From the NCBI GenBank assembly GCA_009841005.1, contig VXMR01000065.1, positions 1 through 35,882 of the forward strand: a stretch of 35,882 nt of DNA, read 5' to 3'. Shown one piece after another: positions 4,527-26,704 of the stretch. Positions within the stretch are counted from its first letter, which is position 1; every line of letters starts with the position of its first letter. Both the position numbers and the translations under genes were made by a program. The notes under the pieces are model-generated. The model saw only the letters and a program-made list of their open reading frames with translations. It did no database searches and was not told the DNA's origin. Source of the DNA: Gemmatimonadales bacterium. Lineage in GTDB: Bacteria > Gemmatimonadota > Gemmatimonadetes > Palauibacterales > Palauibacteraceae.

Positions 4527-4560
4527 CGGCTACCGATTCCGCCTATGCTTTGGGCCGACG

Positions 4561-4623: not shown

Positions 4624-4640
4624 ACCGCCGCCAGCGAGGC

Positions 4641-4871
4641 TCAACCGGATCCGGAATCGAGAAACGCGGCCAGGTCCCGCATGTTCTTCCAGTTGGCAAC
4701 CTCCTCGGGGGGAATCTCGACACCGAACGCCACCCCGACCTTCTTCACGAAGGCTACGGCGTCAAGGGACGAGATGTCGGAGGAAAGCAGACCGGTGTCG
4801 AGATCCAGGTCTCTTCCGAGGTCGAGGTGCTGGCGAGCGAGTTCCTGAATGCGGGCTTCGGTTGCTGTCAT
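4641..4871 (-). CDS. Free-standing acyl carrier protein 1
   Basis: 76 aa from the ATG at 4871. The size and helix pattern are those of an ACP. The carrier site reads DISSLDAV, so Ser35 is the predicted phosphopantetheine attachment point, with Ser in place of the usual Asp of DSL. Downstream residues (FVKKVGVAFGVEIPPEE) follow the acidic helix II-III pattern. An upstream in-frame ATG would add 36 residues unlike ACP; a GAGGA stretch before the 4871 start supports the shorter form. It is the first gene of a two-gene minus-strand cassette with hydrolase 1, placed between PKS A and PKS B. It is a likely acceptor or donor for one of the PKS terminal KS domains (inference). The activating phosphopantetheinyl transferase is not in the window. 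Confidence 0.85.
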   Translation of the reverse strand: MTATEARIQELARQHLDLGRDLDLDTGLLSSDISSLDAVAFVKKVGVAFGVEIPPEEVANWKNMRDLAAFLDSGSG

Positions 4872-5217
4872 GGTCAGAGTCCTCGGGGTTGCATGGGTGG
4901 AAAATGTCACTTCCGCGCACCATGAATATAGACGCTCCAGGTGAGCGATACGAACCTCGAAGGCAATACTACGGCACATCTGTCTCCCCGGATACCGTCC
5001 GAAGCGCCGCCCAGGGCGCTCGACCGGCGGCGTCGCGTCGAAGTCCGCGTACCGCGGAGCGGCCGCGACCTAAAGCACCACCTCCCGCACCGCGGCCGCG
5101 GGGCCGTATTTTTTCTCAGCCCAACTTGATGATATTTCACATGCGGGAGCACACGCGACCGCGCCCGGGGAGTCGACCCTCGGCGGGCTGAAACCGAACG
5201 ACAGGAGGGGACTGCGG
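4872..5217. other. Divergent intergenic region between ACP1 and PKS B
   Basis: 346 nt without a gene. It should contain the promoters for the ACP1 cassette (leftward) and PKS B (rightward). I see a hairpin with a T-tract at 5093-5114, an AT-richer patch at about 5107-5140, and a TATATT-like hexamer on the minus strand about 60 nt before the ACP1 start, but no convincing paired -35/-10. The PKS B ribosome-binding site GGAGG is at 5204-5208. Confidence 0.7.
5093..5114 (+). terminator. Candidate short intrinsic terminator upstream of PKS B
   Basis: CGGCC (5093-5097), loop GCGG, GGCCG (5102-5106), then TATTTTTT (5107-5114). The stem is only 5 bp but all G/C, and the T-run is rare in this GC-rich sequence. 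It would stop + strand read-through from PKS A before the PKS B promoter. Confidence 0.4.
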
Positions 5218-8200: not shown

Positions 8201-11200
8201 ACCACCTCGTGTACGACCGCATCGTCGCTCCCGGGGCACTCCACGGCGCCATGGCGGTGTCCGCGTCTCTGGCCGGTCGCGGCGGCTCGGCGACCGTGTC
8301 CGACATGCAGCTGCACAGTCCCTTGATCTTCGAAAGCGAGGATGGCGAGGACCCGGAGGACGGGGCGCATGGCGCGGGCCGCAAGCTGCAGTTTGTTCTG
8401 AGCGGACCCGAAGATGCCACGGTGGATGCCGCGGCGGATGCTGCGGCGGAAACCCCGGAGCGTCGTTTCGAGGTGTTCAGCAAGGGGGAAACCGAAGAGA
8501 CGTGGACCCTTCACGCCGGTGGCAGGCTTTCATGGCGTACGTCCGGCCCGGCCCCCGGCCCCGAAGAGGCTCCGCACGTCGATCTGGATGAGCTGAGAGC
8601 CCGACTGCCGCGCCGTGATCCGGCGGAGTTCTACCGACTGCGATGGAGCGGCGACATTCATCTCGGCCCATCGTATCACACGCTCCAGGCCGTCTGGGCC
8701 GGAAAAGGCGAAGCCCTGGGGGAACTGGCCCTCGGCGATTCGGTGGATGCGAGCGGCATGGAGATGCATCCCCTTCTCCTCGACGGCTGTTTCCAGATCT
8801 CGGCCATCGCCCGCCATCTGATGAAAGTCGAGCAGGGCGCGGTCTACCTGCCTTTCGGATGGGAATCTCTGTGGGTGGCGGGCCCACTGCCGGATCGGGT
8901 CGTATGCCACGCCGTCCTGAGGACTCCCGGGTCGGAGGACGGGGCGGACACACCACCGCAAGTCGTGACGGGCGACGTTCGGCTCTATGCCGCGGACGGC
9001 ACGGCCGTCGCCGTGCTGAAGGGCTACACCGCCAAGCGGGCGACCCGATCCGCGCTCCTTTCCGCCGAGGACGGGGTCAAGGACCTGCTGTACGAGGTGG
9101 CATGGCGGAAGAAGCCCCTGAGTGGGGGGATGCGCGCCGCGGATTACCTGGCGGATCCCGAGGTCGTCGCGAGCCGGTCCCCGACGTTCGTCGAATACCT
9201 GGCGCAGGAAGGCGTTGAAGGCCCGGACAGAGCCGCTCTACTGAAAGATCAGGAGACGTTGTCGAGGGCATACGCCCGTGCGGCGCTCGACAGCCTGGGG
9301 TGGGAGCGCGAAGCCGGCGAAGCGGTCCGGCCGGACGACCTTCGCCGCCAACTGGGGGTGACGGACGATCACCGGCGCCTGTTTGTCCGGCTCCTCGACC
9401 TGGCGGCGGGCGACCCGAGCCCGGACGGCCCGCACGGATCCGACGGCTTTCTCCTCGATCCCGGACCGCTGGCCGAGCGGTTCATTGACGGACATCCGCA
9501 CGGGATCAACGAACTCGGTCTCCTTCGCCGCTGCGGTTCGGCTCTCGCCGAGGTGTTGCGGGGTCGCAGAGACCCGCTCGGCTTGCTGTTCGGCGACGAC
9601 GGGCCGAGCGCCGCGAGCCTGTACCTGACGGCCCCCGCGTCGCGTGCGGCGAACCGAATGCTCGGGGATGCGGTGGCCGCGGCTGTGTCGGGTCTTCCCG
9701 AGAATCGGCGTCTGCGGATCCTGGAAGTCGGTGCGGGGACGGGTTCGGCGACGGAGTCGATTCTCCCGCTCCTCCCCTCCGGCCGGTTCGACTACACGTT
9801 CACGGACATCTCGGCGGGGTTCTTCGCGCAGGCCGAAGCGCGTTTCGCCGCTACCGGCGCTCCGATCGAGTACAGGGCGCTGGACATCGAGGCCTCACCC
9901 GAAGCCCAGGGGTTCGAGGCCCATGCCTACGATCTCGTGATCGCCGCGAACGTGCTGCACGCGACCCGGGACCTCGGCGAGACGCTCGCTCACTGTCGCG
10001 ACCTCCTGGCCCCCTCGGGTCTGTTGCTGGCGCTGGAAGGACTGCGCCGCCGGGCATGGCAGGACCTGACGTTCGGACTTCTGGATGGATGGTGGCGTTT
10101 CGAGGACGACTACCGTCCCGACCATGCGCTCGCGACTCCGGCCGTATGGCGCCGAGCCCTGGGCGATGCAGGGTTCCTCGACATCGAGTTCCCCGGGCTT
10201 GCGAACCCCGATACGGACGAACCCCTGGGCTCGAACGTGATCATCGCTCGGGGACCGCGGAACGTGGCGCTCTCCCCGGGCGTGTGGGTCCTGGCGGCCG
10301 ACGAAACCGGTCGAGCCGCCGAGATGGCCGCCGGGCTGGCCAGGGCGCTCGCCTCCCGGGACCAGACGGTGGTCTTCGCCGGAGACGCCGGAGATGATCC
10401 GGCGACGGTCGACGTGACTCGGCGGGAGTCCTGGCGAGCCCTGTTGGAGGGGCTTCCCGCGGATGTCCCGTTGAAGGGTGTGGTGCACCTCGCCGCTCTG
10501 GATGGGCACGGGGCGGCAGCTACCACCGAGCAAATGGCCGAGGACGTCGCGCGTGTCGGGTCCAGCGCCCTGGCTCTCGTTCAGGGCCTCATCGACACCG
10601 GCGCGACGCCGACCGACGGCGTGTGGTTCGTGACGCGGGGCGCGCAGGTTCTGGAAGAAGACCTTCTGGCGAGAAGCGCGGGGGAACTTGCCGGCTCGAC
10701 TCTGTGGGGGTTCGGGAAGGTGATGGCCCTCGAAGCGGCGCACCTCCGACCGAGGTTGATCGACCTCGACCCCGGGGCGGTGGGGACCGCGGAGACGGTT
10801 TCGAATCTTGCCCGGGAAGTCCTCTTTCCCGATGCCGAGACGCACATCGCCTATCGGGGAGGCTCCCGCCAGGGCGCCCGGCTGGTGCGCCTGGGTGCCG
10901 GCCGGACGCCGCTCGCCTTGCCGGAGGATGCGGATTGGGTTGTCGGGCCCACGGACCCGGCGGCCGGTCTGTCGGCGCTGGGAGCGAAGCCGCGCCCGAA
11001 ATCCCCGCTGGAGCCCGGCGAGGTCCGGATCTCGGTGGAGGCCGTGGGGCTCAACTTCGCCGACGTGCTCCTCAGCATCGGCGCCGTGCCGTACGACCGG
11101 GAGATCGGCCGCGAGATGTACGGCCGCGTGCTGGAGACGGCGCCCGATGTGGAGGTCCTCTCCGCGGGGGATACGGTCGTCGGATTGGGCTTCGGCTCGT

Positions 11201-14200
11201 ACACGCCGGAGATGGTGACGCCGGCGGTCGCGCTGGCTCCCGCGCCCGATGGGTTCTCCGCGCCCGCGCTGGCCACGATGCCCGTCTGCTTCGTGACGGC
11301 TGAACTCGCCTTCGAGATGGCGGGATTGACGGCCGGCGAACGCGTACTGGTCCACGCGGGAACCGGAGGCGTCGGCCTTGCCGCGATCCAGCTTGCGCGC
11401 GCCGCGGGCGCCGACGTCTTCGCAACCGCGAGTGTGGCGAAGCAGCCCTGGCTTCGCTCCCTCGGCGTCGACCACGTCTTCGACAGCCGGCAGACCGACT
11501 TCGGCGAAGAAATCCTCGATGCCACGGGCGGCGAGGGAGTTCACGTCGTGTTGAACAGCCTCACCGGCGAGGGCTTCATCGAAGCGAGCCTGTCCTGCCT
11601 GGGGACGCGAGGCCGCTTTGTCGAAATCGGGAAGCGGGAGATCTGGAGCGAAGAAGAGATGTCGGCGGCACGTCCGGATGTCGCCTACTCCGTGCTGGAT
11701 CTGGACGGGGTGAAGTTGACCGATCTCGCTCGGGCCGGCGCCTCCCTGGCGCGGGTCATGGGGCGGCTCTCGTCCGGCGAGCTGAGGCCGCTGCCTCACA
11801 CCGTCTGGCCCCTATCGGAGCTCCAGGCGGCCCTCGACGTCATGCGCGACGCCCGGCACACCGGCAAGAACGTCGTGCGGATGCCTCCTGTCGCACGGGA
11901 CGGCCTGCGCCCGGACCGGACGTACCTGGTGACGGGCGGGCTGGGAGGGATCGGCTGCGCGGTCGCCCGCTGGCTGGCCGAGAAGGGGGCCGCGACGATC
12001 GTCCTGAACGGGCGCCGCGCCCCCGACCCCGACGCGGAAGCGGCGATCCGCGAGCTGCGCGAGGGTGGCGTCGATGTTCGGGTGGAAGTGGCCGACGTAA
12101 CGGACCCCGCGGCCATCGATCACATGCTAACCCGGATCGACGAGACCCTGCCGCCGCTCGGCGGCGTGGTCCACAGCGTGGGCGTGCTGTCGGACGGCGT
12201 CATTGAGAACCAGAACTGGGAACGGTTCGAGGAGGTCCTGTGGCCCAAGGTGCTGGGAGCCTGGCATCTGCACCGGGCCACCATGGCGCTCGACCTCGAT
12301 CTCTTCATCCTTTTTTCCAGTGTCACCGGCGTCGTGGGAAACCCGGGCCAGACCAACCACGCCGCCGCCAACGCCTTCCTCGACCAGGTTGCCGCCCACC
12401 GGCGCGCCCTCGGTCTCCCCGGTCAGGCCATCGCCTGGGGTGCGTGGTCGGGAATCGGGGAAGCGGAAGAGCAGCGGGAGAGGATCGAGAAACAATTGGC
12501 GTACACCGGCGCGGGCTGGATCACGCCGCGGCAGGGGATCGAAGCCTTCGACTGGCTGGTCCGGCAGGACGTGACCCAATCCACGGTCACCAGCGTTGAC
12601 TGGTCGGTCAGCGGAGAGGGGCTCGAATCCCGGCCTCGCTTCCTCGAAGACCTGATCGTCACGAAGAAAGCCAGGCGCGGGACGGGTGAAGCCCCGGCTT
12701 CCTCCGACGGCCTGATGTCCCGGCTGCGGGAGGCCCCGGCTGACGACAAGGAGAATCTCCTGTCGGCCTTCATCCAGGAGGAACTGAAGGCCGTGTTGAG
12801 ACTGCCGTCATCCCCCTCGGCCACAGCGAGCTTCTTCGATCTGGGCATGGACTCGCTGATGGCCGTGGAGTTGCGGAATCGGCTGAACCGCGCGTTTGCC
12901 GGGGAGTACGCGGCATCCAACACGGTCGTGTTCGACTACCCCAACTCCGCCGGTCTCGCGGAACACCTGTCGAAGGAGCTCGGCGCCCTGACCGGCGCGG
13001 AGCCGGCGACCGAGCCCGTAGCGGAGCCGGTCACGGAAGTGGCGGAGTCGGCCACGGAACCTGTGGCGCCGGCCGTCCGCACGCAGTTCCGCCGCGACGA
13101 CGACGACATCGCCATCGTCGGCATGGCCTGCCGATTCCCGGGTGCGCCGGATATCGACGCCTTCTGGCGGCAGCTTGAGGAGGGCGAGGACGCGGTCAGC
13201 GAGGGCCGTGCGGATCGGGGCTCATGGGAGGGCGTGGTCGGAGATCCGGGGGCCGAGGACCCGCTGCACCGACGGGGTGCTTTCGTCGAGGACATCGACC
13301 GGTTCGACTCGCGGTTCTTCCGCATCGCACCCATTGAGGCGCGGACGATGGACCCTCAGCAGCGGATGCTGCTGGAGACCAGTTGGCAGGCTATCGAGGA
13401 CGCGGGCATCGATCCCGGCCGGCTGGCTGGCAGCCGCACCGGCGTATATGTCGGCGTCGGCGGCAGCGAATACCGGGACCTGTTCGCCTCCCGGGGGCAG
13501 CCACTGGACTACGGCGGCACCAACGAGGCGATGACGGTCGGACGGGTCGCCTTCGCCCTGGGCCTCGAAGGGCCGGCGATTCCGCTGGATATGGCCTGTG
13601 CATCGTCCCTGGCCGCGGTGCACCAGGCGGTGGCGGGTCTGCAGAGGGACGAAGTCGACATGGCACTTGCGGGCGGTGTCAACGCCATCCTGTCGCCCGG
13701 AATCGCCGACTTCCTCGCAGAGTTGGGGGTGTTGTCCCCCAGCGGCCGCTGCCGTGCGTTCGACGCGGCCGCAGACGGCTTCGTCCGCGGCGAGGGATGC
13801 GGCATGATCGTCCTCAAGCGGCTGGCCGACGCCCGCGACGACGGTGACCGCATCTGGGGCGTCGTCCACGGTTCCGCGGTGAACCAGAGCGGGCGGAGTG
13901 CGGAACTGATGGCCCCCAACGGGCCGACCCAGGAACGGGTCATGGAGGAGGCGCTCGCGCGGGCCGGCGTCGACCCCGGCGAGGTCGACTATCTTGAGGC
14001 CCAGGGAGTGGGCAGCGAATTCGGTGACCCCATTGAGCTGAACGCCGTAGCCGCCGTCTACGGCCGGGGTCGCGACGCGGACGATCCTCTCCTCGTCGGT
14101 TCGGTCAAGACGAACATCGGCCACCTGGAGTGGGCCGCCGGGATCGCGAGCCTGATCAAGACGGTGTTGGCGATGAACCGCGGTGTGATTCCCGGCAACC

Positions 14201-15537
14201 TGCACTTCCGGGACCCGAGTCCGCTCCTCGACTGGAAGAGCCTCCCGGTGCGCGTCGCCTCCGGCGCCACGGCGTGGCCGGGCCACTCCGGGAGAGCGCC
14301 TCTCGCCGCGGTGAACACCTTCGGGCTTTCGGGTGCGAACGCGCACGTCGTCGTGGGTGGATACGCGAACCCGGCTGCGGACGATGGCACCGTCTGGCCC
14401 GCAGGACCCGTTCGCACCGTCGCGGTCACCGGCACGACGGCCCCGGGAGGACTCGGAGAACGGACGACCCGTTTCCTGCCCCTTTCGGGCAAGTCCCCGG
14501 ACGCCCTGCGGGAGCTGGCTCGACGCTACCTGGAATTCGTTGGGAAGCCGGATGGTTCGAGTCTGGCCGATGTGGCATGGACCGCGGGCAGGGGGAGAAG
14601 TCACTTCGCCTACCGCGCCGGACTGGTGTTCGACGATCTCGCACAACTTCAGGAGGGGCTTCGGGATGTGGCCGCAGGAAGACGAGGGCCTGCTGACCCG
14701 GAACCGCTGGAAGCGCCCCGGACCGCCTTCCTGTACACCGGCGGGTCCCGTAGCTGGGCGGGCATGGGACAGGCCCTGTACGAGACGGAACCGGTCGTGC
14801 GCGAGGTGCTCGACACCTGCGAAGAAGTGTGGCGGGGAGAGCGTGGCGCCTCGCTACTGGAGGTGCTGTTCGGGAAGGACGGAGCGAAGGACGATGTCGG
14901 CGACGCCGGCGAGGCAACGTCGGTCGGGGCCTCGATCTACGCGCTCCAGTGCGGTCTCACGGCGCTTTGGAGGAGTGTCGGGATAAGCCCGACCCCCGTA
15001 GTCGGATGCGGCGTCGGCGAACTCGCGGCGGCGCAGGCCGCCGGCGTGTGGGGTCTGGAGGAAGGGTTGCGGCTCTGGGCGGAGTGGGGAGGACGCGAGG
15101 CTCCGCGGGACATCTCGCTCGCCGCGCCCGCCGTGACCCTGGTGAGTGGCGCGACGGGGGTGGCGGTTGGGTCCGGCGACGCGCGCGACGTGACGTATTG
15201 GCAGCGGTCGGTGCGCGAGCTGCCGGCCATTGACCGCTGCCTCCGGACGCTGGCGGAGATGGAGGTGCCGGTCGTGGTGGAGATCGGCCCGGAAAGCGTG
15301 CTGGCGCCGATGCCGATGGTCACGCAGAGCCCGGGGGAGGGCACCGCACCCGTCTTGCTTTCCAGCCTGAGCGCCGTGCAGCCTGCGGACGGCTTCGTGG
15401 CGGCGGTGGCCGGGGCGTACGAGGCGGGGCTCGAGATCTCCTTCGAGGGACTGTTTGCCGGCGAGGCTCGGTCGCGCGTGCCGCTGCCCGGCTATCCCTT
15501 CCAGCGCCGCCGCCACTGGCTCGAGGCCGTGGCTTGA
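5218..15537 (+). CDS. Type I polyketide synthase B: KS-AT-DH-cMT-psiKR-ER-KR-ACP-KS-psiAT
   Basis: 3439 aa. The GTG start lies 9 nt after GGAGG, and KS1 begins about 13 residues in, leaving no docking domain. KS1 (13-442): Cys188 in DTACSSS, His323, His363. AT1 (584-876): GHSLGE Ser680 and AYHS His787, malonyl-type rather than methylmalonyl-type. DH (965-1280): His996 and Asp1189. C-methyltransferase: SAM motif LEVGAGTG at 1502. Structural psiKR about 1683-1860. ER (1905-2222): HAGTGGVG at 2046. KR: GGLGGIG 2240, Ser2368, His2381 where Tyr is expected, Asn2385. ACP: DSL Ser2546. KS2 (2631-3050): Cys2794, Gln2929 replacing the first catalytic His (EAQGVGS), His2969. AT2 (about 3169-3405): GCGVGE with Gly3265 in place of Ser, and about 90 residues missing. 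KS1 to ACP is a complete reducing, methylating module like mycocerosate-type synthases, likely iterative and lipid-forming. The terminal KS2-psiAT is unusual. There is no thioesterase. Confidence 0.97.
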   Translation: MTTHGNGRTREPGEPIAIVGMACRFPGSRTLSDFWRQLIAGENAVVEGPPGSVIGRAGRLFPDSGGENRALRFGAFIEDLDQFDADFFRISPIEAQMLDPQQRMMLEVSWHALEDAGIDPESLKGSRTGVYVGISNNDYRDMVIDAPETADTAVGFYAVTGTALNTAIGRVSFALGLEGPCMAIDTACSSSLVALHQAVGALQRGETDLALSGGVHIYLAGRPLELRANAGMLSPEGQCKAFDAAADGFVCGEGCGLLVLKRLDAAEAAGDRIWAVIRGSSVNQDGASQGLTVPSGPSQEKAMAEALARGGVSPSDVDYLEAHGTGTVVGDPIELGAAAAVYGRGRTSANPFLVGSVKTNIGHLGPAAGVAGVIKAVLAMRHGVIPRHLNFKDPTPSVDWDRLPVRVTDVMTDWPLHPDRRPLAGVNSFGWSGTNAHVVLEGYGEAVTETATDAGSGPATLRPPVGPAIPVPVSASTPEAADPSDARTTRFLPLSGKSPAALGDVASRHLSWLAEHWRDEREGERSGADTIADMVWTAASGRSHFAHRAGVLFSDVAELRRKLARLAEGQGPEAGVAPVRATNVAFVFTGQASQWVGMGRALYEREPVFRSVLDRCDGLLLEERGVSLLDVMFGSEGASGTGGLLDEAAWTQPAIYALECALTALWESVGVEPSVVVGHSLGEMAAAQAAGVFGLEDGLRFAAARGALMGATRSDGAMAAIFAPAARIASAVAERNAASDDVDLSVAVDNGLQQVVSGPAQDLEAVLARFEAERVKVVRLRRSPAYHSALIEPALDDLEAAVRDITPAPPSPSVPFVSNLTGRLLEPDERMDAAYWRRQAREPVAFRRSVETLAELGVDAVVEIGPHAVLGPVVAMTWPETAPTGPPVIFASLRRPPRDPAEPVADPSGGFVEAVAGAYEAGMEIGFPGLFAGETRRRISLPGYPFQHSHHWIPRSRRRRTAAGHPLLGMRHELPRGEITFETEMFASDPAWLQDHLVYDRIVAPGALHGAMAVSASLAGRGGSATVSDMQLHSPLIFESEDGEDPEDGAHGAGRKLQFVLSGPEDATVDAAADAAAETPERRFEVFSKGETEETWTLHAGGRLSWRTSGPAPGPEEAPHVDLDELRARLPRRDPAEFYRLRWSGDIHLGPSYHTLQAVWAGKGEALGELALGDSVDASGMEMHPLLLDGCFQISAIARHLMKVEQGAVYLPFGWESLWVAGPLPDRVVCHAVLRTPGSEDGADTPPQVVTGDVRLYAADGTAVAVLKGYTAKRATRSALLSAEDGVKDLLYEVAWRKKPLSGGMRAADYLADPEVVASRSPTFVEYLAQEGVEGPDRAALLKDQETLSRAYARAALDSLGWEREAGEAVRPDDLRRQLGVTDDHRRLFVRLLDLAAGDPSPDGPHGSDGFLLDPGPLAERFIDGHPHGINELGLLRRCGSALAEVLRGRRDPLGLLFGDDGPSAASLYLTAPASRAANRMLGDAVAAAVSGLPENRRLRILEVGAGTGSATESILPLLPSGRFDYTFTDISAGFFAQAEARFAATGAPIEYRALDIEASPEAQGFEAHAYDLVIAANVLHATRDLGETLAHCRDLLAPSGLLLALEGLRRRAWQDLTFGLLDGWWRFEDDYRPDHALATPAVWRRALGDAGFLDIEFPGLANPDTDEPLGSNVIIARGPRNVALSPGVWVLAADETGRAAEMAAGLARALASRDQTVVFAGDAGDDPATVDVTRRESWRALLEGLPADVPLKGVVHLAALDGHGAAATTEQMAEDVARVGSSALALVQGLIDTGATPTDGVWFVTRGAQVLEEDLLARSAGELAGSTLWGFGKVMALEAAHLRPRLIDLDPGAVGTAETVSNLAREVLFPDAETHIAYRGGSRQGARLVRLGAGRTPLALPEDADWVVGPTDPAAGLSALGAKPRPKSPLEPGEVRISVEAVGLNFADVLLSIGAVPYDREIGREMYGRVLETAPDVEVLSAGDTVVGLGFGSYTPEMVTPAVALAPAPDGFSAPALATMPVCFVTAELAFEMAGLTAGERVLVHAGTGGVGLAAIQLARAAGADVFATASVAKQPWLRSLGVDHVFDSRQTDFGEEILDATGGEGVHVVLNSLTGEGFIEASLSCLGTRGRFVEIGKREIWSEEEMSAARPDVAYSVLDLDGVKLTDLARAGASLARVMGRLSSGELRPLPHTVWPLSELQAALDVMRDARHTGKNVVRMPPVARDGLRPDRTYLVTGGLGGIGCAVARWLAEKGAATIVLNGRRAPDPDAEAAIRELREGGVDVRVEVADVTDPAAIDHMLTRIDETLPPLGGVVHSVGVLSDGVIENQNWERFEEVLWPKVLGAWHLHRATMALDLDLFILFSSVTGVVGNPGQTNHAAANAFLDQVAAHRRALGLPGQAIAWGAWSGIGEAEEQRERIEKQLAYTGAGWITPRQGIEAFDWLVRQDVTQSTVTSVDWSVSGEGLESRPRFLEDLIVTKKARRGTGEAPASSDGLMSRLREAPADDKENLLSAFIQEELKAVLRLPSSPSATASFFDLGMDSLMAVELRNRLNRAFAGEYAASNTVVFDYPNSAGLAEHLSKELGALTGAEPATEPVAEPVTEVAESATEPVAPAVRTQFRRDDDDIAIVGMACRFPGAPDIDAFWRQLEEGEDAVSEGRADRGSWEGVVGDPGAEDPLHRRGAFVEDIDRFDSRFFRIAPIEARTMDPQQRMLLETSWQAIEDAGIDPGRLAGSRTGVYVGVGGSEYRDLFASRGQPLDYGGTNEAMTVGRVAFALGLEGPAIPLDMACASSLAAVHQAVAGLQRDEVDMALAGGVNAILSPGIADFLAELGVLSPSGRCRAFDAAADGFVRGEGCGMIVLKRLADARDDGDRIWGVVHGSAVNQSGRSAELMAPNGPTQERVMEEALARAGVDPGEVDYLEAQGVGSEFGDPIELNAVAAVYGRGRDADDPLLVGSVKTNIGHLEWAAGIASLIKTVLAMNRGVIPGNLHFRDPSPLLDWKSLPVRVASGATAWPGHSGRAPLAAVNTFGLSGANAHVVVGGYANPAADDGTVWPAGPVRTVAVTGTTAPGGLGERTTRFLPLSGKSPDALRELARRYLEFVGKPDGSSLADVAWTAGRGRSHFAYRAGLVFDDLAQLQEGLRDVAAGRRGPADPEPLEAPRTAFLYTGGSRSWAGMGQALYETEPVVREVLDTCEEVWRGERGASLLEVLFGKDGAKDDVGDAGEATSVGASIYALQCGLTALWRSVGISPTPVVGCGVGELAAAQAAGVWGLEEGLRLWAEWGGREAPRDISLAAPAVTLVSGATGVAVGSGDARDVTYWQRSVRELPAIDRCLRTLAEMEVPVVVEIGPESVLAPMPMVTQSPGEGTAPVLLSSLSAVQPADGFVAAVAGAYEAGLEISFEGLFAGEARSRVPLPGYPFQRRRHWLEAVA
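12001..15537 (+). repeat. Diverged copy 2 of the PKS KR-ACP-KS-psiAT segment
   Basis: Paralogous to 1-3651 (see copy 1). It covers the end of the PKS B KR, the ACP, KS2 and the degenerate AT. Both copies have the KR Tyr-to-His change and the same AT region deleted, so these changes predate the duplication. The KS His-to-Gln change is in this copy only. Confidence 0.85.
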
Positions 15538-17304
15538 GCGTCGGCGCGGCGGGCGACGCACCCGGCCTGCGCTTCCAGCCCGACGAACCGGCTCCGGCGA
15601 AGCTGGCTATCGGCCTGGGCATCCAGCTCGCCGCGCTCAACATCGCGGGCGTGATGCTGATCCCCATGGTCGTGATGCGGGCGGCGAGCGTGCCCGATGC
15701 CTACCTCTCCTGGGCCGTGCTTGCCTCGGTCGCCGTCAGCGGAGCGACGACGATCCTGCAGGCCTGCCGCGTGCGCCGCTTCGGCGCGGGGCATGTGCTG
15801 GTAATGGGAGGTTCCGGGGCCTTCATACCCGTCTGCATCATGGCCCTCGCGGAGAGCGGCCCCGCATTGCTCGCGACGCTGGTCGTCATCTCGGCGCTCG
15901 TGCCGCTGTTGCTGTCGTGGCGGCTGTCGCTCTTCCAGCGCATCCTGACGCCCCCCGTATCGGGAACCGTGATCATGCTGATCCCGGTGACCGTATCGCC
16001 GTACGTATCCGGACTCCTGGAGGGGGCGTCGGCCGGAGCCCCGGCCGCGGCCGGCGTGCCACTGAGCTTCTTCGCGACCGTCCTCCTGATCGCCACCATC
16101 GCGCTGCGGGGGACCGGAACTCTGCGCTTGTGGGCCCCGGTGATCGGCGTGATCGGCGGTACCGCGCTCGCGGGCTACCATGGACTGTACGATCTGGAAC
16201 GCGTCGCGGGCGCCACCTGGGTCGCGCCGCCGGATCCCCGCCTTCCGGGCTTCGATCTCCGGTTCGGGCCGGCGTTCTGGACCCTTCTCCCCTCTTTCCT
16301 TCTGGTAGCCGTGATCGCCGCCGTGCGCACGCTGAGCAGCGCGGTTGCGATCCAGCGCGTCTCGTGGCGCCGCAAGAGCCGCGCGGTCGATTTCCAGGCC
16401 GTGCAGGGGGCCGTGGCCGCGGACGGAGTGGGGAACCTGGTCGCCGGGGTCTTCGGTACGGTTCCCGGCACGGCCACCACGGCCAGCATATCGCTTACCG
16501 AACTCACGGGTGTCGCGGCGCGCGGCGTCGGGATCGTGGCCGGAGCCACCTTCATCGCGCTCGCGTTCCTCCCCAAGGCGTTCGCGGCAGTGCTCGCCAT
16601 TCCGGACCCCGTATTCGCCGGCTACCTGGCCGTCGTTCTGGCGATGCTGTTCACGATAGGCATGAGGATCGTCGTGCAGGGCGGCGTCGACTACCGCAGT
16701 GGCATCGTGGTCGGAATCGCCTTCCTTGACAGGGACGAGCTTCCAGTACGGCCTGGTGTTCCCGGACCTGGTCTCGTCGTTCGCGGGCGGCCTGCTCGCC
16801 AACGGGATGAACGCCGGTGGCCTCACGGCGATCCTGCTCACACTGTTCCTTCGTCTCACCGCGCCGCGCCGCGCCCGCATTGAGGCTCACCTCAGCGTCT
16901 CGGGGCTGCCTGCGATCAGGGAGTTTATCACGGCTTTCGGAGCGAAGGTCGACCTGGACCGTACCGTGGTGGATCGATTGGAGGCGGCGGCGGAGGAGGC
17001 TCTACTGGCCCTCGGTCTCCCCGACGACTCGGCGGACGGACTCGCCGCCCGGCGCCTCCTCCTCACCGCCTGGCGCGAGAAGGGCGACGTAACGCTCGAG
17101 TTCGTCGCCGCTCCGATGGGCGAGAACCTCCAGGACCGCCTCGCGCTGATGGGTGGAGAAGCGGGGGAGGCCTCATTCGAAAACGAAGTTTCCCTGCGTC
17201 TCCTGCGTCATCTCACTTCGTCGGTGCGCCATCGGCAGTATTACGACACGGACATCGTGACAGTGCGGGTGGGGACCGCCGTCACGGCCCGCCGACCGTC
17301 ATAG
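15534..17304 (+). pseudogene. NCS2 (xanthine/uracil-type) permease with C-terminal ATPase-like region, frameshifted
   Basis: The frame opens at TTG 15534, overlapping the PKS B stop (TTGA) with GAGG 8 nt upstream. It encodes a multi-span NCS2 permease: hydrophobic helices, then a VDFQAVQGAVAADG region and a GTVPGTATTASISLTELTG stretch typical of the family. At about 16722-16729 the frame is lost; the homologous sequence resumes one frame over as LTGTSFQYGLVFPDLVSS and runs to 17304. One extra base (or two missing) explains this; the first frame otherwise adds about 50 unrelated residues to 16883. The downstream part first completes the permease, then adds about 150 residues with EAAAEEALLALG and SLRLLRHLTSSVRH, resembling an RsbW-like histidine-kinase-type ATPase fold (moderate confidence). 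The cause may be a sequencing error or true gene decay. If intact it would import purines or related solutes; a link to the PKS is not evident. Confidence 0.8.
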
Positions 17305-18213
17305 GAGGCGGCGGGCCTCGAGAAAGCGCCGCAGCGCGGCGACGCACTCCGCCGGCTGTTCCAACTGGAGCAGGTGCGTGGTGTCCGGCAGGAAATCGTA
17401 TTCGACCGTCTCTATGTGGCTCAGGTTGAAGGACGGCATGTACGAGAAAGCCAGCGTGGGATCCGAACCGACGACCTTGGTCGGGCATGGTAGCCGGCCC
17501 ATGTCCACGAGGAACGCGAACGTGCGCGTGTACGCCAGGATCTGCGCCTCGTATTCGCGCGGACAGCGAAGTTCGTAGCCGGTGCCATCGGGAGACTCGC
17601 GGAGTACCGTCCGGGCCATCAGTTCCGCCGCCCCCGGGACCGCCCGGGTCAGCAGCAGGTGGCGGATGAGTTCGGCGAAGTCCTCCTGATCGCCGAAGCG
17701 GTCCGTTCGGCGCCGAATCGTCGCGGCCAGTTTCTCGGACAGTTCTTCGTACTCGACGTCACCCATCTTCGGTCTGAACATCGGAGGATCGAAGAGAATC
17801 CACGCCGATAACTCGCCCGTGCGCCCGGTCCCGAGCGACGGCGAAAGGAGCGCCGTCAGGGCCGCGAGGGAATGGAATACGCCGATCGTCCGGGCCCGGC
17901 CGTATTGATCCTCAAGGGCTTCAACGACCCGTTCCTGATCCAGGACCAGGTTGGGAACGTTGTGCCCGGAAGCTGACCCCACCGCGTTCCATCCGTGGTT
18001 CCGGATGTCGTAGAGGAAGAGGTCGAAATCGTCCTGGAGCAGCGACCAGAAAGGATAGTAGAGGTCGATCGCCAAGCCGCTGCCGTGACTCAGCAGCAGC
18101 CGTGGCCCACCCGGATTCCCGTGCCTGCGCAGCTTGGTGACGCTCCCGTCATCGTGACGAACGTCGCATACGGAACGAGGTTCCGGCACCTCCCAGATCG
18201 CCTTCGTGGTCAT
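17299..18213 (-). CDS. Alpha/beta hydrolase 2, paralogue of hydrolase 1
   Basis: 304 aa with an ATG start. It has HGSG (43-46), elbow VFHSLA with Ser115, Asp251 in GSDPT and His280 in TTHLLQLE. It matches hydrolase 1 along its length, including the N-terminal WEVPEP, YYPFWSLL and YDIRNHGWNAVG stretches, so the two are clear paralogues. As there, the Ser elbow lacks both GxSxG glycines. It lies 118 nt after ACP2 on the same strand, with a strong hairpin in between, and ends convergent to the permease (6-nt overlap). Its repeated pairing with an ACP next to a thioesterase-less PKS suggests hydrolysis or transfer of carrier-bound acyl chains (inference). Ester or amide hydrolysis of a small molecule cannot be excluded. 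Confidence 0.85.
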   Translation of the reverse strand: MTTKAIWEVPEPRSVCDVRHDDGSVTKLRRHGNPGGPRLLLSHGSGLAIDLYYPFWSLLQDDFDLFLYDIRNHGWNAVGSASGHNVPNLVLDQERVVEALEDQYGRARTIGVFHSLAALTALLSPSLGTGRTGELSAWILFDPPMFRPKMGDVEYEELSEKLAATIRRRTDRFGDQEDFAELIRHLLLTRAVPGAAELMARTVLRESPDGTGYELRCPREYEAQILAYTRTFAFLVDMGRLPCPTKVVGSDPTLAFSYMPSFNLSHIETVEYDFLPDTTHLLQLEQPAECVAALRRFLEARRLL

Positions 18214-18234
18214 GGCGCGCGTGCAGCAGTCAAA

Positions 18235-18288
18235 CCGACCAAGAGCCGGTCCCCCCGGACCTATGCCGGGGGGGGCGGCTCAAGTCGG
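18235..18288 (-). promoter_or_regulatory. Long RNA hairpin in the ACP2-hydrolase2 gap
   Basis: Nested inverted repeats: CCGAC (18235-18239) with GTCGG (18284-18288); GAGCCG (18243-18248) with CGGCTC (18276-18281); CCCCCCGG (18251-18258) with CCGGGGGG (18266-18273); loop ACCTATG. That is 19 Watson-Crick pairs plus a G-T wobble, broken by a mismatch and a small internal loop. No T-tract follows on the minus strand. It occupies the same intergenic position as the hairpins at 4561-4623. Confidence 0.75.
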
Positions 18289-18331
18289 AATCGGAGTCAT
18301 CAGCCTCGGCGCCGAGCGCCGTGCCGAGCGT

Positions 18332-18550
18332 TCATTTTGCGGCGGAGTTCAGGTAGTCTGCCAGCTTCCGCAGCGATCCAAGGCACTCCGTGGGGACGGA
18401 GACGCCGAAGTCCTCCTCGACGACTTTCTTGAAGGCCATGGCAGCCATCGACGAGACGCCGATGTCCGGGAGGGTCGCGTCGAAGTTGGGCTCGCGGTCC
18501 AGGTCGAGATGTTCGGCGACGAGCTCCCGCAGGCGATCTCCGGCGGCCAT
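18332..18550 (-). CDS. Free-standing acyl carrier protein 2
   Basis: 72 aa; ATG at 18550 preceded by AGGA at suitable distance. ACP-sized, with carrier site IGVSSMAAM: Ser34 is the predicted phosphopantetheine site, flanked by Ser instead of Asp and Met instead of Leu. The acidic EEDFGVSVP segment follows as expected for helix II-III. It lies between the PhyH-like oxygenase (134 nt upstream) and hydrolase 2 (118 nt downstream), all on the minus strand. Radical halogenases of this superfamily often work on carrier-bound substrates, so ACP2 is a candidate tether for the oxygenase substrate (inference). It is only loosely similar to ACP1 but in an equivalent cassette. Confidence 0.85.
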   Translation of the reverse strand: MAAGDRLRELVAEHLDLDREPNFDATLPDIGVSSMAAMAFKKVVEEDFGVSVPTECLGSLRKLADYLNSAAK

Positions 18551-18684: not shown

Positions 18685-19680
18685 CTACGAGGCTCCGCTG
18701 CCCGTGTGCCTCCGGATCGTTCGGCGGTCGCGGTCGCTGAAGTAGGCACACTGCGAAATCACGTCGCCGTGTTGCGCCCCGGCTTCGGCGATCTCGATAT
18801 GCTGGCGCGTGACCGGCTTGTACGGGAAGGGTCCCTTCCCGTACTGCTCGGAGGGGAATTCAAGGCACTGTGCCCGGTTCAGGTCGTAGCGCGAAGTCGC
18901 ATCGACGAAACGCATCACGTAGGCCGCACGCTGGGCCAACTCACCTTCGCCGAGCAGGACGCTGCGATGGATGACGCTCTTGTTGAACAGGAATGCGTCG
19001 CCCGGTTCGAAGTCGTCCTCCACGGCCTGCACGTCGAGAAGTTCCTTCATGGCGGGGGAGTTGAGGATCCCCCCTCGGAGACCGAAGTAATCGTCCACGC
19101 CCGTCCTCTTCCCGGCCCGTTCCCGGGCCTTGAGCGCCTCGACGACCGCGAGATCCGCCGGGTAGACGAAGTCGCCCGGCAGAATATGCTGGGGAATGTA
19201 GGCCATGCCGCCCCGCTGTCCGTTCGTATCGATGGGATGAAGCGGCACCCAGAGCGTGCACGCGAACTCCTCGGCGAATTGGTAGCCGAAGCTCTGCACG
19301 CCGACATGCCACGGGAATCCCTTGTTTACGTTCTTCTTGATCTCGAAGGACAACTCGAACGTGAGAAAGAGGTCACGCCCGGTCAGGTCCGTCAGGGCCC
19401 GCCGGAAATAGGGGCGTTCCAGTAGCTCGAAGATGTCCGCCTTGTCGGCGGCAAAATCGTATTGCGTCCGGCTGAACACCGATTCGGACGCGACGCGGTC
19501 CGTGGTTCCTCGGTTGAATTGAACTTCCATTCCCCGGTTCAATTCGACATCCACGCGATCGAGCAGCGTGCTGACCACGTCGGCGTTGAGGAATCCCTTC
19601 AGCTTGACGAAACCGTCGCGCGAGAAGTGCTCCACCTGCTCGCGCGCGACGCTGAATTCGGTGTCGAACGGATGGGCCAT
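18685..19680 (-). CDS. PhyH-family Fe(II)/2-oxoglutarate enzyme with HxG iron site, putative radical halogenase
   Basis: 331 aa; ATG at 19680 after GGAGAAGAA. The fold is phytanoyl-CoA dioxygenase-like. The iron site reads GFPWHVGVQ: His125 with Gly127 where hydroxylases have Asp/Glu, and the distal His238 lies in NKSVIHRS. Arg257 follows 19 residues later, a fit for the 2-oxoglutarate/anion-binding Arg. In SyrB2, as I recall it, the motif is FPWH-x-A, with His116, His235 and Arg254; spacing and the FPWH context match closely. Loss of the carboxylate ligand is the hallmark of Fe/2OG halogenases, since chloride takes its place. The neighbouring ACP2 would suit a carrier-tethered substrate. The alternative is a PhyH protein that has lost iron binding or uses another ligand. 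The PhyH fold is sure; the halogenase role is an inference. It is 34 nt downstream of the SDR gene. Confidence 0.85.
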   Translation of the reverse strand: MAHPFDTEFSVAREQVEHFSRDGFVKLKGFLNADVVSTLLDRVDVELNRGMEVQFNRGTTDRVASESVFSRTQYDFAADKADIFELLERPYFRRALTDLTGRDLFLTFELSFEIKKNVNKGFPWHVGVQSFGYQFAEEFACTLWVPLHPIDTNGQRGGMAYIPQHILPGDFVYPADLAVVEALKARERAGKRTGVDDYFGLRGGILNSPAMKELLDVQAVEDDFEPGDAFLFNKSVIHRSVLLGEGELAQRAAYVMRFVDATSRYDLNRAQCLEFPSEQYGKGPFPYKPVTRQHIEIAEAGAQHGDVISQCAYFSDRDRRTIRRHTGSGAS

Positions 19681-19714: not shown

Positions 19715-20704
19715 CTATCGGCTTCGAGTAGCGGTAGTTGGCAGAGTATCTCCCGTACCGGGGGAGGGCAACCGACCCTCCTCGTCTTCGGCCGGCTGTC
19801 GCCCGAGGATCAAATCGAAGGCGTCGACAGGGACGACGAGCCGGGTGTCCAACACGTCGGCGAGCGCCGATGGCGTCAGGTCGCGTTCGGAGCGGGCCTC
19901 GAAGGCGATGCCGGGAACCTCCAGCACGCGCACTCGCCGCCCGGACACGTGGAAGATCTGGTTGCGGGCCGGGCAGTCGGCCTCGGCCAGCCACGCCGCG
20001 AGAGCGGCGACATGCTCGGGTCCGAAGGGGTCGTACCCGGTCTCGTCCGGCTCGCCCAGCTGATCGGCCCCCGTCATGCCCGCCACCATGCGCGTCCGCG
20101 CCGAGGGCGAGATCACGTTCGAGCGGACGCCGTACGGGGCTCCCTCGATGGACAGGACCTTGGAGAGGCCGATGACACCCATCTTCGCGGCCCCGTAGTT
20201 CGCCTGCCCGAAGTTGCCGCAGAGTCCGGAAGAAGAGGTCGTGTGGATGACGGAGGCGGCGCGGGGGCGGCCGGCCTTCGCCTCGGCGCGCCACCAGGCG
20301 AGCGCGTGGCGGCTCGGAGCGGCGTGGCCCTTGAGGTGGACGGCGACGACCGCGTCCCACTCGTCCTCGGACATGTTGAACAGGGCCCGGTCCCGAAGGA
20401 TGCCGGCGTTGTTCACCAGGATGTCGAGCCCGCCGAACGATTCGACCGCCAGGGCGATGAGGTCGTGGGCGGCGGTCCAGTCGGAGACGTCGTGACGGCT
20501 GGCCACGGCCCGGCCGCCGCCGGCCCGGATCTCGGCGCAGACGGATTCGGCCGGCCCGCCATCGGCGCCGTCGCCGCCAACGCCCGTGCCGAGGTCGTTG
20601 ACGACGACGCTGGCCCCGCCGGCCGCCATGGCGAGCGCGTGGGCCCGGCCGATGCCGCGGCCGGCGCCCGTCACAATCGCCACGCGCCCGGCCAGCCGGC
20701 TCAC
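19715..20704 (-). CDS. Short-chain dehydrogenase, MFE-2-type (3-hydroxyacyl-CoA dehydrogenase-like)
   Basis: 329 aa; GTG at 20704, with AGGA about 10 nt upstream. NAD(P) motif GAGRGIG near residue 13, then NDLGTGVGGDG, NNAG and a catalytic Ser / Tyr-x-x-x-Lys (SSSGLCGNFGQANYGAAKMG). The NDLG segment and the extra C-terminal 70 residues after the Rossmann core resemble the dehydrogenase unit of peroxisomal-type multifunctional enzyme 2 and its bacterial stand-alone relatives. The likely role is oxidation of 3-hydroxyacyl-CoA or reduction of a 3-oxo group. It lies 31 nt after the aminotransferase and 34 nt before the PhyH-like gene, so it probably shares their transcript. Exact substrate is unknown. 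Confidence 0.85.
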   Translation of the reverse strand: MSRLAGRVAIVTGAGRGIGRAHALAMAAGGASVVVNDLGTGVGGDGADGGPAESVCAEIRAGGGRAVASRHDVSDWTAAHDLIALAVESFGGLDILVNNAGILRDRALFNMSEDEWDAVVAVHLKGHAAPSRHALAWWRAEAKAGRPRAASVIHTTSSSGLCGNFGQANYGAAKMGVIGLSKVLSIEGAPYGVRSNVISPSARTRMVAGMTGADQLGEPDETGYDPFGPEHVAALAAWLAEADCPARNQIFHVSGRRVRVLEVPGIAFEARSERDLTPSALADVLDTRLVVPVDAFDLILGRQPAEDEEGRLPSPGTGDTLPTTATRSR

Positions 20705-20735: not shown

Positions 20736-22091
20736 TCAGCCGTCGATCCGCCGGCAGGCGGCCGCGAGGCGACGGATGCCCTCCGCCATCTCGTCCTCGG
20801 AGATGAGGAGCGAGGGCCCGATCCGGATCACATGCCCGTTCAACCCGCCGCGGCCGATGAGCAGGTGCTCCTCGCGCGCCGCCTCGAGCAGCGCGCCGGC
20901 CCGCTCGCCGTCCGGCGCCCTCCCGTCGCGGTCCTCGACCATCTCGATGCCCTGCATCAGCCCCATGCCGCGCACCTCGCCGATCCAGTCGTGCGCGCTC
21001 TTCAGCGTCTCCAGCCCGGCGCGAAGCTGCGCCCCCCGCTCGGCGGCGCGGGCGGGCGCGTTCTCGCTCTTCATCACGCCCAGCGTCGCGCCCATCGCCG
21101 CCATCGAGATCGAGTTGCCCCCGTACGTCGAGATCGACGGCCCCTGCCACGCCTCGGCGATCTCGGGCCGCGTGACGGTCGCCCCCACGGGGAATCCGTT
21201 CGCGATCCCCTTCGCCATCACCATGATGTCCGGCTCGACGCCCCAGTGCTCGATTCCGAACCAACGGTCCCCGGTCCGGCCGAACCCGGCCTGCACCTCG
21301 TCGATGATGAACAGGCCGCCGTAGCTCCGGATCACCTCGGCCGCCCTTCGAAAATACTTGGGAGGCGGCACGATGACGCCGGCCACGCCCTGGATCGTCT
21401 CGGCGAAGAAGGCGGCCGGCTTCCCGCCCGTCGTCGTCTCGATGACCTCCACGAGGTCGTCGATGAAGAAGTCCGTCGCCTCGGGACCCGCTCCGACCGG
21501 AGACCGGTAGAGGTACGGCGACCGCGCGTGGACGATCCCGTCGACGCCCCCGCCGGGGAGACGCCAGGCGCCCTGCGCCGTCATGTGGCTCGTGAGCGTG
21601 CTCCTGCCGGAGTAGGAGAGCCGCAGCGCGACGATCTCGTGACGACCCGTGTACAGGCGCGCCGTCGCGACCGCGGACTCCACCGCCTCCGTGCCGCTGT
21701 TCGTGAAACATGTCGTCCGGAGGGCGCCCGGCGTGATCTCCGCCAGCGAGCGCGCGGCTTCGATCTGGCCTTCCGTCACGTAGAGCGCCGAGGTGTGTCC
21801 GAGCCGCTCCATCTGTGCGCGCGCCGCCGCCACGACGGTCGGGTTGCAGTGGCCGACCGACGTCGTGAGGATGCCCGCGAACAGGTCCAGGTACTCATCG
21901 CCGTCCACGTCACGGACCCAGACGCCCTCTCCTTCGGCGAGGGCCAGCGGGTCGCCGTAGTAGGGACGGACCCAGGGGTACAGGAAGTCGCTCTGGGCCG
22001 CGGTCAGCGCCCGCGTTCGGGATTCCGCCACGGGCGCGGCGCCGGCGGCGTGCGCCGAGGATGTCTGCGGGGCGGTCTGTACGTTGCTCAC
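20736..22091 (-). CDS. Class III PLP-dependent aminotransferase
   Basis: 451 residues from the GTG at 22091, which has AGGAG directly upstream; the frame continues 61 codons further upstream but that part looks non-coding and overlaps the dehydrogenase gene. Family signatures: TNSGTEAVESAV, the IIDEVQAGFGRTG segment with the PLP-ring Asp, and the Schiff-base Lys in MVMAKGIANGFPVG. It is closest by eye to AGXT2 / 4-aminobutyrate-type enzymes, which move an omega- or beta-amino group to a keto acid. In an operon with beta-oxidation genes and a carrier-linked tailoring enzyme it could act on a 3-oxo or aldehyde intermediate, or in beta-amino acid catabolism; the sequence does not decide. Follows the dehydrogenase by 22 nt. 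Confidence 0.9.
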   Translation of the reverse strand: MSNVQTAPQTSSAHAAGAAPVAESRTRALTAAQSDFLYPWVRPYYGDPLALAEGEGVWVRDVDGDEYLDLFAGILTTSVGHCNPTVVAAARAQMERLGHTSALYVTEGQIEAARSLAEITPGALRTTCFTNSGTEAVESAVATARLYTGRHEIVALRLSYSGRSTLTSHMTAQGAWRLPGGGVDGIVHARSPYLYRSPVGAGPEATDFFIDDLVEVIETTTGGKPAAFFAETIQGVAGVIVPPPKYFRRAAEVIRSYGGLFIIDEVQAGFGRTGDRWFGIEHWGVEPDIMVMAKGIANGFPVGATVTRPEIAEAWQGPSISTYGGNSISMAAMGATLGVMKSENAPARAAERGAQLRAGLETLKSAHDWIGEVRGMGLMQGIEMVEDRDGRAPDGERAGALLEAAREEHLLIGRGGLNGHVIRIGPSLLISEDEMAEGIRRLAAACRRIDG

Positions 22092-22113
22092 GAGTGTCTC
22101 CTGACGGTAGGCG

Positions 22114-22971
22114 TCAATCCCAGCGGTAGAAGCCTCGTCCGCTCTTCCGGCCCAGGCGGCCCGCCGCCACCATCCGCTCGAGCAGAGCCGGGGGTTCGAA
22201 CACCGGCGACCCCAGCGCCTCGTGCAGGTAGCGGGCGATGTCGAGCCGGACGTCGAGCCCGACGAGATCTCCAAGTTTCAGCGGTCCCATGGGGTGGCGG
22301 TAGCCGAGCATCATGGCGGTGTCGATGTCCTCCGGGCTCGCCACGCCCTCCTCCACCATGCGGATCGCCTCCAACCCGAGGGCAAGCCCGAGCCGCGACG
22401 AGGCGAACCCGGGCGAGTCGGCGATGACGACCGGCGTCTTCCCGAGGCGTTCGGCGACCTCGCGGGCCCTCGCCACGGTTTCGTCGGACGTCTCCGCCCC
22501 GCGCACGATCTCGACGAGCGCCATGATGTGGACGGGGTTGAAGAAGTGCATCCCAACCACGCGGCCGGGCGACGGAAGTCCCTCCGCGAGCGCGGTGATG
22601 GACAGGGAAGAAGTGTTCGTGGCGAGCAGGGCGCCGGCGGCGGCCGCCTCCCCGCACCGGGCGAGGACCTTCTGCTTGAGATCCAGCCTCTCGGGCACGG
22701 CTTCGATCGCGATCCCGACCCCGTCGGCCGCCTCGCCCAGGTAGCGGCTGTACGACAACCCCCCGAGCGCGCGCTCGCGCTCTTCGGGCGTGACCTTCCC
22801 GCGCTGGATCCCCTTGCGGAGGTTGGCCTCGATGCGCTCGCGCGCCGTCTCCAGCACGTCGGGCATGACGTCGAACAGACGGGTGTCGTAGCCGGCCATC
22901 GCCGCGACCTGGGCGATTCCGTGCCCCATCGTGCCGGCCCCGAGCACGGCCAGCGCCGGACGGGCCGTCAT
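22114..22971 (-). CDS. 3-hydroxyacyl-CoA (3-hydroxybutyryl-CoA type) dehydrogenase
   Basis: 285 aa. The ATG at 22971 overlaps the preceding GNAT stop as ATGA. N-terminal Rossmann motif GAGTMG (residues 11-16), NTSSLS, and the catalytic HFFNPV (His) followed by VEIV (Glu). The C-terminal dimerisation domain ends in the family-typical GRKSGRGFYRWD-like segment. Full length for the stand-alone enzyme (about 285 aa), without a fused hydratase. It oxidises (S)-3-hydroxyacyl-CoA with NAD+ in beta-oxidation or in a related catabolic route, in the cytoplasm. Together with the hydratase and thiolase upstream it completes a beta-oxidation spiral, apart from an acyl-CoA dehydrogenase, which is not in the window. 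Confidence 0.93.
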   Translation of the reverse strand: MTARPALAVLGAGTMGHGIAQVAAMAGYDTRLFDVMPDVLETARERIEANLRKGIQRGKVTPEERERALGGLSYSRYLGEAADGVGIAIEAVPERLDLKQKVLARCGEAAAAGALLATNTSSLSITALAEGLPSPGRVVGMHFFNPVHIMALVEIVRGAETSDETVARAREVAERLGKTPVVIADSPGFASSRLGLALGLEAIRMVEEGVASPEDIDTAMMLGYRHPMGPLKLGDLVGLDVRLDIARYLHEALGSPVFEPPALLERMVAAGRLGRKSGRGFYRWD

Positions 22972-24315: not shown

Positions 24316-24331
24316 GCCGAACCCGCCCGCT

Positions 24332-25552: not shown

Positions 25553-25580
25553 CGCTGCTTCCGTACCCGCCGTCCCGGTC

Positions 25581-26668: not shown

Positions 26669-26704
26669 TTGAAGCACGGGATGACCGCCGCAACCGCATG
26701 CTGA
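26669..26704 (+). CDS. Eleven-codon leader ORF overlapping the MFS start
   Basis: TTG at 26669 sits 8 nt after GGAGG (26656-26660) and encodes 11 residues (MKHGMTAATAC) ending at TGA 26702-26704, which overlaps the ATG of the exporter (26698) by 7 nt. The exporter's own start has no ribosome-binding site at normal distance, and its frame closes at a TAG just upstream, so no earlier start is possible. Translational coupling through this mini-ORF is the simplest reading. No known attenuator peptide is recognised. Confidence 0.45.
   Translation: MKHGMTAATAC

Follow-up and report, generated by a model that had tools for sequence, protein, structure and literature searches.

What does a PhyH-like protein do when its iron site lacks the carboxylate ligand, and what does it act on when its gene lies among those of a polyketide synthase (PKS)? 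Both questions are raised by a stretch of 35,882 nucleotides from a Gemmatimonadales bacterium (contig VXMR01000065.1), the whole of which is called the window here. A first-pass annotation, made from the letters alone, had proposed a radical halogenase resembling SyrB2 that takes its substrate from the adjacent acyl carrier protein (ACP). The gene, HAL, and the residues on which the proposal turns are located as follows.

18685..19680, minus strand: HAL, the putative halogenase gene, 331 amino acids with an ATG start, PhyH fold and HVG iron site
19300..19308, minus strand: H125-V126-G127 (CAT GTC GGC), the proximal histidine (H125, 19308-19306) and the vacant ligand position (G127, GGC, 19302-19300)
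18967..18969, minus strand: H238, the distal iron ligand, placed from the HAL reading frame and the alignment of relatives
18912-18910, minus strand: R257, the expected binder of 2-oxoglutarate, a role assigned from the family

The H-x-G site without Asp or Glu, the distal histidine and the arginine that the first-pass annotation had read here are all present in the 331-residue frame. The iron-site motif is GFPWHVGVQSFGYQ; residues 118-136 contain no Asp or Glu and the first acidic residue past H125 is E137, so the missing ligand has no close neighbour in the sequence as a substitute. Passages of PMC12871659 and PMC8407142 define these halogenases by an HxD/E motif changed to HxG or HxA, together with a distal histidine and an arginine for 2-oxoglutarate, a signature that H125, G127, H238 and R257 reproduce. 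All four residues are among 39 columns without variation across the 23 aligned HxG rows, and HxG occurs in 23 of the 26 relatives placed in the tree. The double-stranded β-helix of the PhyH/cupin kind is indicated by the Pfam PhyH match (1.7e-6) and by the resemblance of the structure model to the CurA halogenase domain (CurA Hal) and PhyH-fold enzymes. PHROGs has no family for HAL, and the GC content at 18-20 kb, 0.641, is below that of most of the window. The protein does not group with paralogues that have lost metal binding, an outcome that the first-pass annotation had set against its own proposal; the other, a nearby acidic residue supplying the ligand, is absent from the window protein, while two close relatives, described below, carry Asp and Glu respectively at the ligand position.

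A phmmer search of the PDB sequences (E up to 10) gave two matches, 9pv1_A (BtnX, 1.2e-111), whose PDB title combines 'Biotin halogenase BtnX' and 'Phytanoyl-CoA dioxygenase', and 3nnf_A (CurA, 9.7e-28). A profile of 20 relatives (E up to 0.01) gave three: BtnX (1.4e-155), CurA (3.1e-34) and a leucine hydroxylase (6e-4). SyrB2 is not among the matches listed at either threshold, an absence that excludes nothing; as closest kin it is unsupported, and BtnX and CurA Hal, being nearer, are better references than the SyrB2 on which the first reading had leaned. The AlphaFold2 model of HAL, built from 20 rows, has a mean pLDDT of 78.3 and a pTM of 0.82; pLDDT falls below 50 at 51-76, 116-121, 155-157 and 327-331, the first three of which leave parts near the iron site weakly modelled. 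Foldseek places the CurA halogenase domain first (7.4e-19). By Z score, too, this domain leads at 27.6 (296 residues aligned, rmsd 2.9), with SnoK at 20.5 and SnoN at 19.6 behind it; neither structure search has 9pv1 in its listed rows. The identity of HAL as a radical halogenase, the candidate function first proposed, is thus well supported by its nearest solved relatives, its top structural match and the prevalence of HxG, and its chemistry is very probably that of a halogenase, for which passages of PMC12346261 describe the mechanism.

The substrate has to be sought among the neighbouring genes, which form a PKS cluster.

1..3651, plus strand: a second PKS of the same kind as the one below, its end only (KR-ACP-KS-AT), cut by the contig end
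3597..4526, minus strand: another alpha/beta hydrolase, which shares 54% identity with the one at 17299..18213
4641..4979, minus strand: a second discrete ACP, found with domain queries
5218..15537, plus strand: type I PKS of 3439 amino acids, KS-AT-DH-MT-ER-KR-ACP-KS-AT, by domain search
15534..17271 (homology stretch up to about 17304), plus strand: Xan_ur (NCS2)-type permease, by domain search
17299..18213, minus strand: alpha/beta hydrolase, 304 amino acids, part of the core of the PKS cluster, by domain search
18332..18550, minus strand: discrete ACP, 72 amino acids, PP-binding match 2.9e-9, with its Ser in DIGVSSM
19715..20704, minus strand: short-chain dehydrogenase (SDR), upstream of HAL at a distance of 34 bases
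20736..22274, minus strand: class III aminotransferase, on the same strand as HAL

The order on the minus strand is therefore SDR, HAL, ACP and alpha/beta hydrolase, the last of which has no solved relative at 1e-3. PKS, hydrolase and ACP each occur twice (window 1-4979 and 5218-18550), as a tandem duplication of the core cluster would look. The permease homology is split over two frames in the window (15564-16724 and 16666-17271); the copy in G054 (L002:5414-7183) is a single frame of 589 amino acids. The first KS and AT of the PKS (KS1 and AT1) have intact catalytic motifs. The last AT (AT2; window copies at 14698-15525 and 2731-3630) lacks the catalytic Ser in 8/8 copies, and the last KS keeps its Cys in 8/8, has HGTGT replaced by H, Q or Y with GS, and keeps the His in 6/8. 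Given the missing Ser and the altered KS, the last KS-AT is probably a conserved, non-extending pair that may hand the chain to the discrete ACP. A CurA-type HMG cassette was also considered: two enoyl-CoA hydratases, a thiolase and a 3-hydroxyacyl-CoA dehydrogenase at 22114-26765 resemble β-oxidation enzymes, and no HMG-CoA synthase appears in the part of the window's reading frames that was scanned. The case for the SDR and the aminotransferase as partners in halogenation is weakened by G292, of the same genus as the window, which has the PKS and no HAL and in which genes 92% (SDR) and 95% (aminotransferase) identical adjoin the PKS.

How closely HAL and the PKS belong together was followed with domain queries over 28 contigs or joined stretches that carry HAL. 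A PKS of about 3,450 amino acids shares a contig with it in 17/28 (window, G060, G054, L003, L004, L005, G1137, G397, G411, G603a, G1354bc, G1334, L013, G402, L015, L016 and G1198), in which the window, G060 and G054 are one lineage and L016 and G1198 apparently one contig. As judged from record titles and search groups, six phyla are represented among these contigs: Gemmatimonadota, Actinomycetota (Acidimicrobiaceae), Dadabacteria, Nitrospinota, Acidobacteria and Gammaproteobacteria. SB-numbered bins are presumably from sponges. A PPTase accompanies HAL and the PKS in six of the 17 (G1137, G397, G411, G603a, G1354bc and G402), the window not being one of them. No PKS was seen in the other 11 contigs (L007, G409, G603b, G478, G1354a, L011, L012, L008, L017, G201b and G279). 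In L007 and G409 HAL lies at contig ends, L007 retaining the hydrolase and ACP; in G603b and G478 the permease adjoins HAL, and in L008 HAL stands with BioY. In at least five of the 11 (L008, L012, G603b, G478 and G1354a) the missing PKS goes beyond merely short flanking sequence.

Within Gemmatimonadota, HAL is matched at 1e-20 in 8/395 genomes (a fragment with a stop in G279, and at contig ends in G201) and the KS2-AT2 of the window PKS at 1e-200 in 41/390. All eight HAL genomes lie within the 41 PKS genomes (Fisher 8e-9, with two draws pooled and kinship ignored), HAL and PKS being on separate contigs in two of them, G099 and G162. HAL is absent from the remaining 33 PKS-bearing genomes, so the PKS does not need it. 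Elsewhere HAL was found in 4/18 Nitrospinota, 3/248 genomes of the order of the Acidimicrobiaceae record, 2/57 of the Dadabacteria group, 5/193 of the Acidobacteria class, and 1/196 and 1/199 in two further groups; so sparse a spread is what horizontal transfer would give. HAL is an optional accessory of a conserved PKS cluster. Seven halogenase-free PKS stretches carry a related discrete ACP in five, the permease in five and the hydrolase in four, which makes the ACP not specific to the halogenase. The observation that an ACP adjoins HAL stands, and its use in the first-pass annotation as a sign of a carrier-bound substrate does not stand as proof, such a substrate being possible and the nearest named enzyme, BtnX, moreover being called a biotin halogenase.

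The reading we favour, with somewhat better than even confidence, is that HAL belongs with BtnX and CurA Hal among the Fe(II)/2-oxoglutarate radical halogenases and serves a widespread, sup-like PKS cluster as an optional tailoring enzyme. The sequence, the iron-site residues, the family and the cluster with its conservation are observed; the halogen chemistry, a PKS chain as substrate and its ACP-bound state are what we infer. H125 and H238 would hold the iron and R257 the 2-oxoglutarate, with chloride or bromide filling the site that Asp or Glu would otherwise occupy; the ferryl-halide would take a hydrogen from an unactivated C-H and the halogen would rebound. The PKS is predicted to build a reduced, C-methylated chain, which the last KS-AT pair, adding no extension of its own, may pass to the discrete ACP, and HAL would halogenate the chain on that ACP or after its release by the alpha/beta hydrolase. 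If HAL is a halogenase, a substrate from the PKS commands rather more than half of that case, or a larger share still; the PKS chain, perhaps on the ACP, is favoured and biotin is the alternative, the sequence itself being undecided between the two. For the PKS-linked members any activity is so far a prediction, and it is plausible that the cluster makes a halogenated acyl chain. The gene would then mark a very widespread, uncharacterised PKS cluster, whose product could be helped to light by a halogen isotope pattern.

The strongest competitor, a serious though clearly less probable one, is that HAL is a biotin halogenase like BtnX, which halogenates free or carrier-bound biotin, for example into an antimetabolite, while the PKS serves another step or is a mere neighbour. 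The BtnX residues of the PDB match are identical over 303 residues to a plasmid protein of Dinoroseobacter shibae (WP_012187119.1), with which HAL shares 54.3% identity (BLAST, 322 columns) or 57.3% (302 ungapped columns) and PKS-linked Nitrospinota proteins share up to 66%. The gene order BioY, ABC ATPase and EcfT of BtnX recurs on a Pseudosulfitobacter plasmid; no paper on BtnX was found, so the basis here for biotin as its natural substrate is the PDB name together with the gene order. The BioY query is matched in L008, L018 and L019, but neither in the window nor in the sequence examined of all 17 contigs with HAL and PKS, and the window gene is without the neighbours BioY, EcfA and EcfT seen in roseobacters and Stappia. 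HAL lies near a biotin-dependent acyl-CoA carboxylase and without a PKS in two Acidimicrobiia contigs; the PKS link, on the other hand, recurs across six phyla.

The trees bear on the same choice. With CurA Hal included, BtnX and the PKS-linked rows are left unseparated. Without it, a tree of 26 rows places the window and other PKS-linked rows in a 19-row clade, mostly of PKS-linked proteins, apart from three BioY-linked rows, with support of 93/97, just below the tree tool's own threshold; the branch of the BioY trio has weak support (69/16), and BtnX looks to be in a branch sister to the PKS-linked clade. Near, partial or broken copies (G060, G054/L002, the three of L007, G409b, G1334, G201, G279, L010, L011, L015, L017 and L018) were left out of this tree. 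Under the rule used, with a PKS set of 16 rows that omitted the D, E and Q rows, clean separators of the BioY- and PKS-linked rows are confined to positions 31, 114 and 254 and the residues around two C-terminal gaps. So few separating positions mean that the enzyme core is very alike in the two groups, which keeps biotin in play; yet the two C-terminal loops whose residues are missing in the BioY-linked rows are present in 16/16 PKS-clade rows, and the window protein does not have the shortened form.

HxG relatives and further HAL copies occur at other loci with neighbours of their own. On Klebsiella, Pantoea and Acinetobacter plasmids (L020:6859-9598, L021:7098-9593 and L022:8001-9606) an HxG relative about 39-40% identical adjoins a LysE-type translocator; the Klebsiella gene also adjoins a haem-oxygenase-like protein (HrmI match 7.2e-37, with a weak 4-chloro-allylglycine synthase match of 1.9e-4), and the Acinetobacter copy has an internal stop. 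These plasmid loci look like a pathway for a halogenated or nitro amino acid with its exporter. In G603b and G478 (L062:13115-20000 with L063; L064/L065), HAL and the Xan_ur permease stand without a PKS; a sulfate permease and a biotin-dependent acyl-CoA carboxylase are close by, which may reflect a biotin link or chance. In Nitrospinota (L058:8618-13712, L007:813-10188 and L056:18780-19697 with L057), tandem HAL copies are followed by a Rieske oxygenase, with luciferase-like monooxygenase genes in two of the three, making up a larger oxidative tailoring set.

A non-halogenating role in the cell is improbable for HAL; on that reading it would be an iron/2-oxoglutarate oxygenase that uses its two-His iron site to hydroxylate, desaturate, epimerise or cyclise. 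The fold is common to epimerases, cyclases and hydroxylases (SnoN, SnoK and proline hydroxylases), and passages of PMC12871659 state that HxG alone is no proof of a halogenase and that searches with the HxG/A motif alone can return false positives; but halogenase is the name or known function of both nearest solved sequence relatives of HAL, and all 23 HxG rows keep Gly127. That HAL is a decaying, inactive remnant is scarcely credible: broken copies exist elsewhere (an in-frame stop in G1334, the fragment with a stop in G279 and His125 replaced by Gln in G1354c), whereas the window frame is open, keeps all 39 invariant residues, has dN/dS of 0.15 to 0.29 against its neighbours and recurs in two further genomes at 99-100% identity. 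The G1354c copy (L086:16166-17077), with Gln for H125, shares its cluster with an adjacent, intact HVG copy and is likely a non-catalytic or altered paralogue.

Within the clade of the radical halogenase favoured here, the carboxylate reappears. L003 (10001-10951), a Gemmatimonadota record and the nearest distinct relative of the window protein in the tree (82.4% over 324 columns), has PWHVDVRS and hence HVD (G127D), and L004 (10001-10936), an Acidimicrobiaceae record (72.8% over 312 columns), has PWHVEVQS and HVE (G127E). Departures among the 39 invariant columns are three in L003 (F19Y, G127D and T142S), which also carries Q129R, and two in L004 (L27I and G127E). In the tree the window pairs with L003 as sister rows (100/100), as L004 does with G603a, an HVG row (98/97); G1354a, also HVG, falls in the seven-row clade that these share. 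Forcing the HVD and HVE rows together changes the log-likelihood by -72.7 (AU p 4e-44, for a pair picked after an earlier tree); judged from the tree, HVD and HVE arose separately. Each rests on one contig, L003 being the same as L026 and L034, and L004 the same as L038, and each genome has one HAL copy. Codon 127 reads GGC in the window; L003 has GAC, and L004 has GAG, which differs from GGC at two bases, so that Glu needs two base changes. The frames are open, and pairwise dN/dS is 0.21 for window-L003, 0.26 for window-L004 and 0.23 for L004-G603a. Sequencing error as the source of HVD and HVE is unlikely, given these codons and contig coverage of 230 and 73. The PKS frame of L003 breaks where the assembly has a run of N flanked by repeated sequence; a pseudogene cluster was rejected, the break being read as an assembly gap.

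An acidic iron ligand would be expected to make such an enzyme a hydroxylase again, although Asp at the ligand position does not ensure hydroxylation. By their sequences, L003 and L004 form candidate natural halogenase/hydroxylase pairs with their HVG relatives. The chances are about even that the carboxylate was regained twice (G127D and G127E), that the enzymes are now hydroxylases or other oxygenases there, and that closely related bacteria produce one polyketide in halogenated and in hydroxylated form. A literature search found no report of such a natural reversal, which is not proof of none. If true, this would be a natural, repeated and recent switch from halogenase to hydroxylase at 82% identity, opposite to the direction usually inferred. 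What sets halogenation apart from hydroxylation in iron/2-oxoglutarate enzymes is an old question, simple Asp-to-Gly swaps being insufficient; for BesD, passages of PMC13244439 report a hydroxylase homologue at most 46% similar, with a single substitution insufficient and at least three changes needed. A pair 82% identical with a natural ligand change, together with an independent change to Glu, would allow the question to be asked with few confounding differences.

Several known systems can be set beside this cluster. The window PKS is likely of the sup (sponge symbiont ubiquitous) kind, an assignment made by its domains and Xan_ur permease rather than by sequence comparison with SupA or SupE. 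The sup clusters spread across phyla as this one does (passages of PMC9426513), the permease SupE is of similar length class, with a 557-residue homologue (PMC3908369, Table 1), and their proposed product is methyl-branched fatty acids (passages of PMC4245539 and PMC9864124); the passages on sup clusters mention no halogenase. BesD, HalA and HalD share the fold and the vacant ligand position (Z 15.2-15.6, BesD 15.6), but they are not found by sequence and their substrates are free amino acids, as given in passages of the review PMC8407142. According to the same review, carrier-bound substrates are required by the CurA Hal, BarB and SyrB systems and not by WelO5 or BesD, the substrate of CurA Hal being a carrier-bound acyl group.

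BtnX (PDB 9pv1 and 9q04; D. shibae pDSHI01, WP_012187119.1) is homologous to HAL over its full length, with the iron site PWHVGVQSFGYQ and the distal His and Arg. Its gene, however, is plasmid-borne, with BioY, an ABC ATPase and EcfT as neighbours, whereas HAL adjoins the ACP, the hydrolase and the PKS, and BtnX-type proteins, unlike HAL, are missing residues in two C-terminal loops. CurA Hal (PDB 3nnf, 3nnj, 3nnl and 3nnm) has the HVG site in the same PWHVGV context and is the best structural match. It is a PKS domain that acts on 3-hydroxy-3-methylglutaryl-ACP, whereas HAL is free-standing, and the two are 22% identical in the structural alignment.
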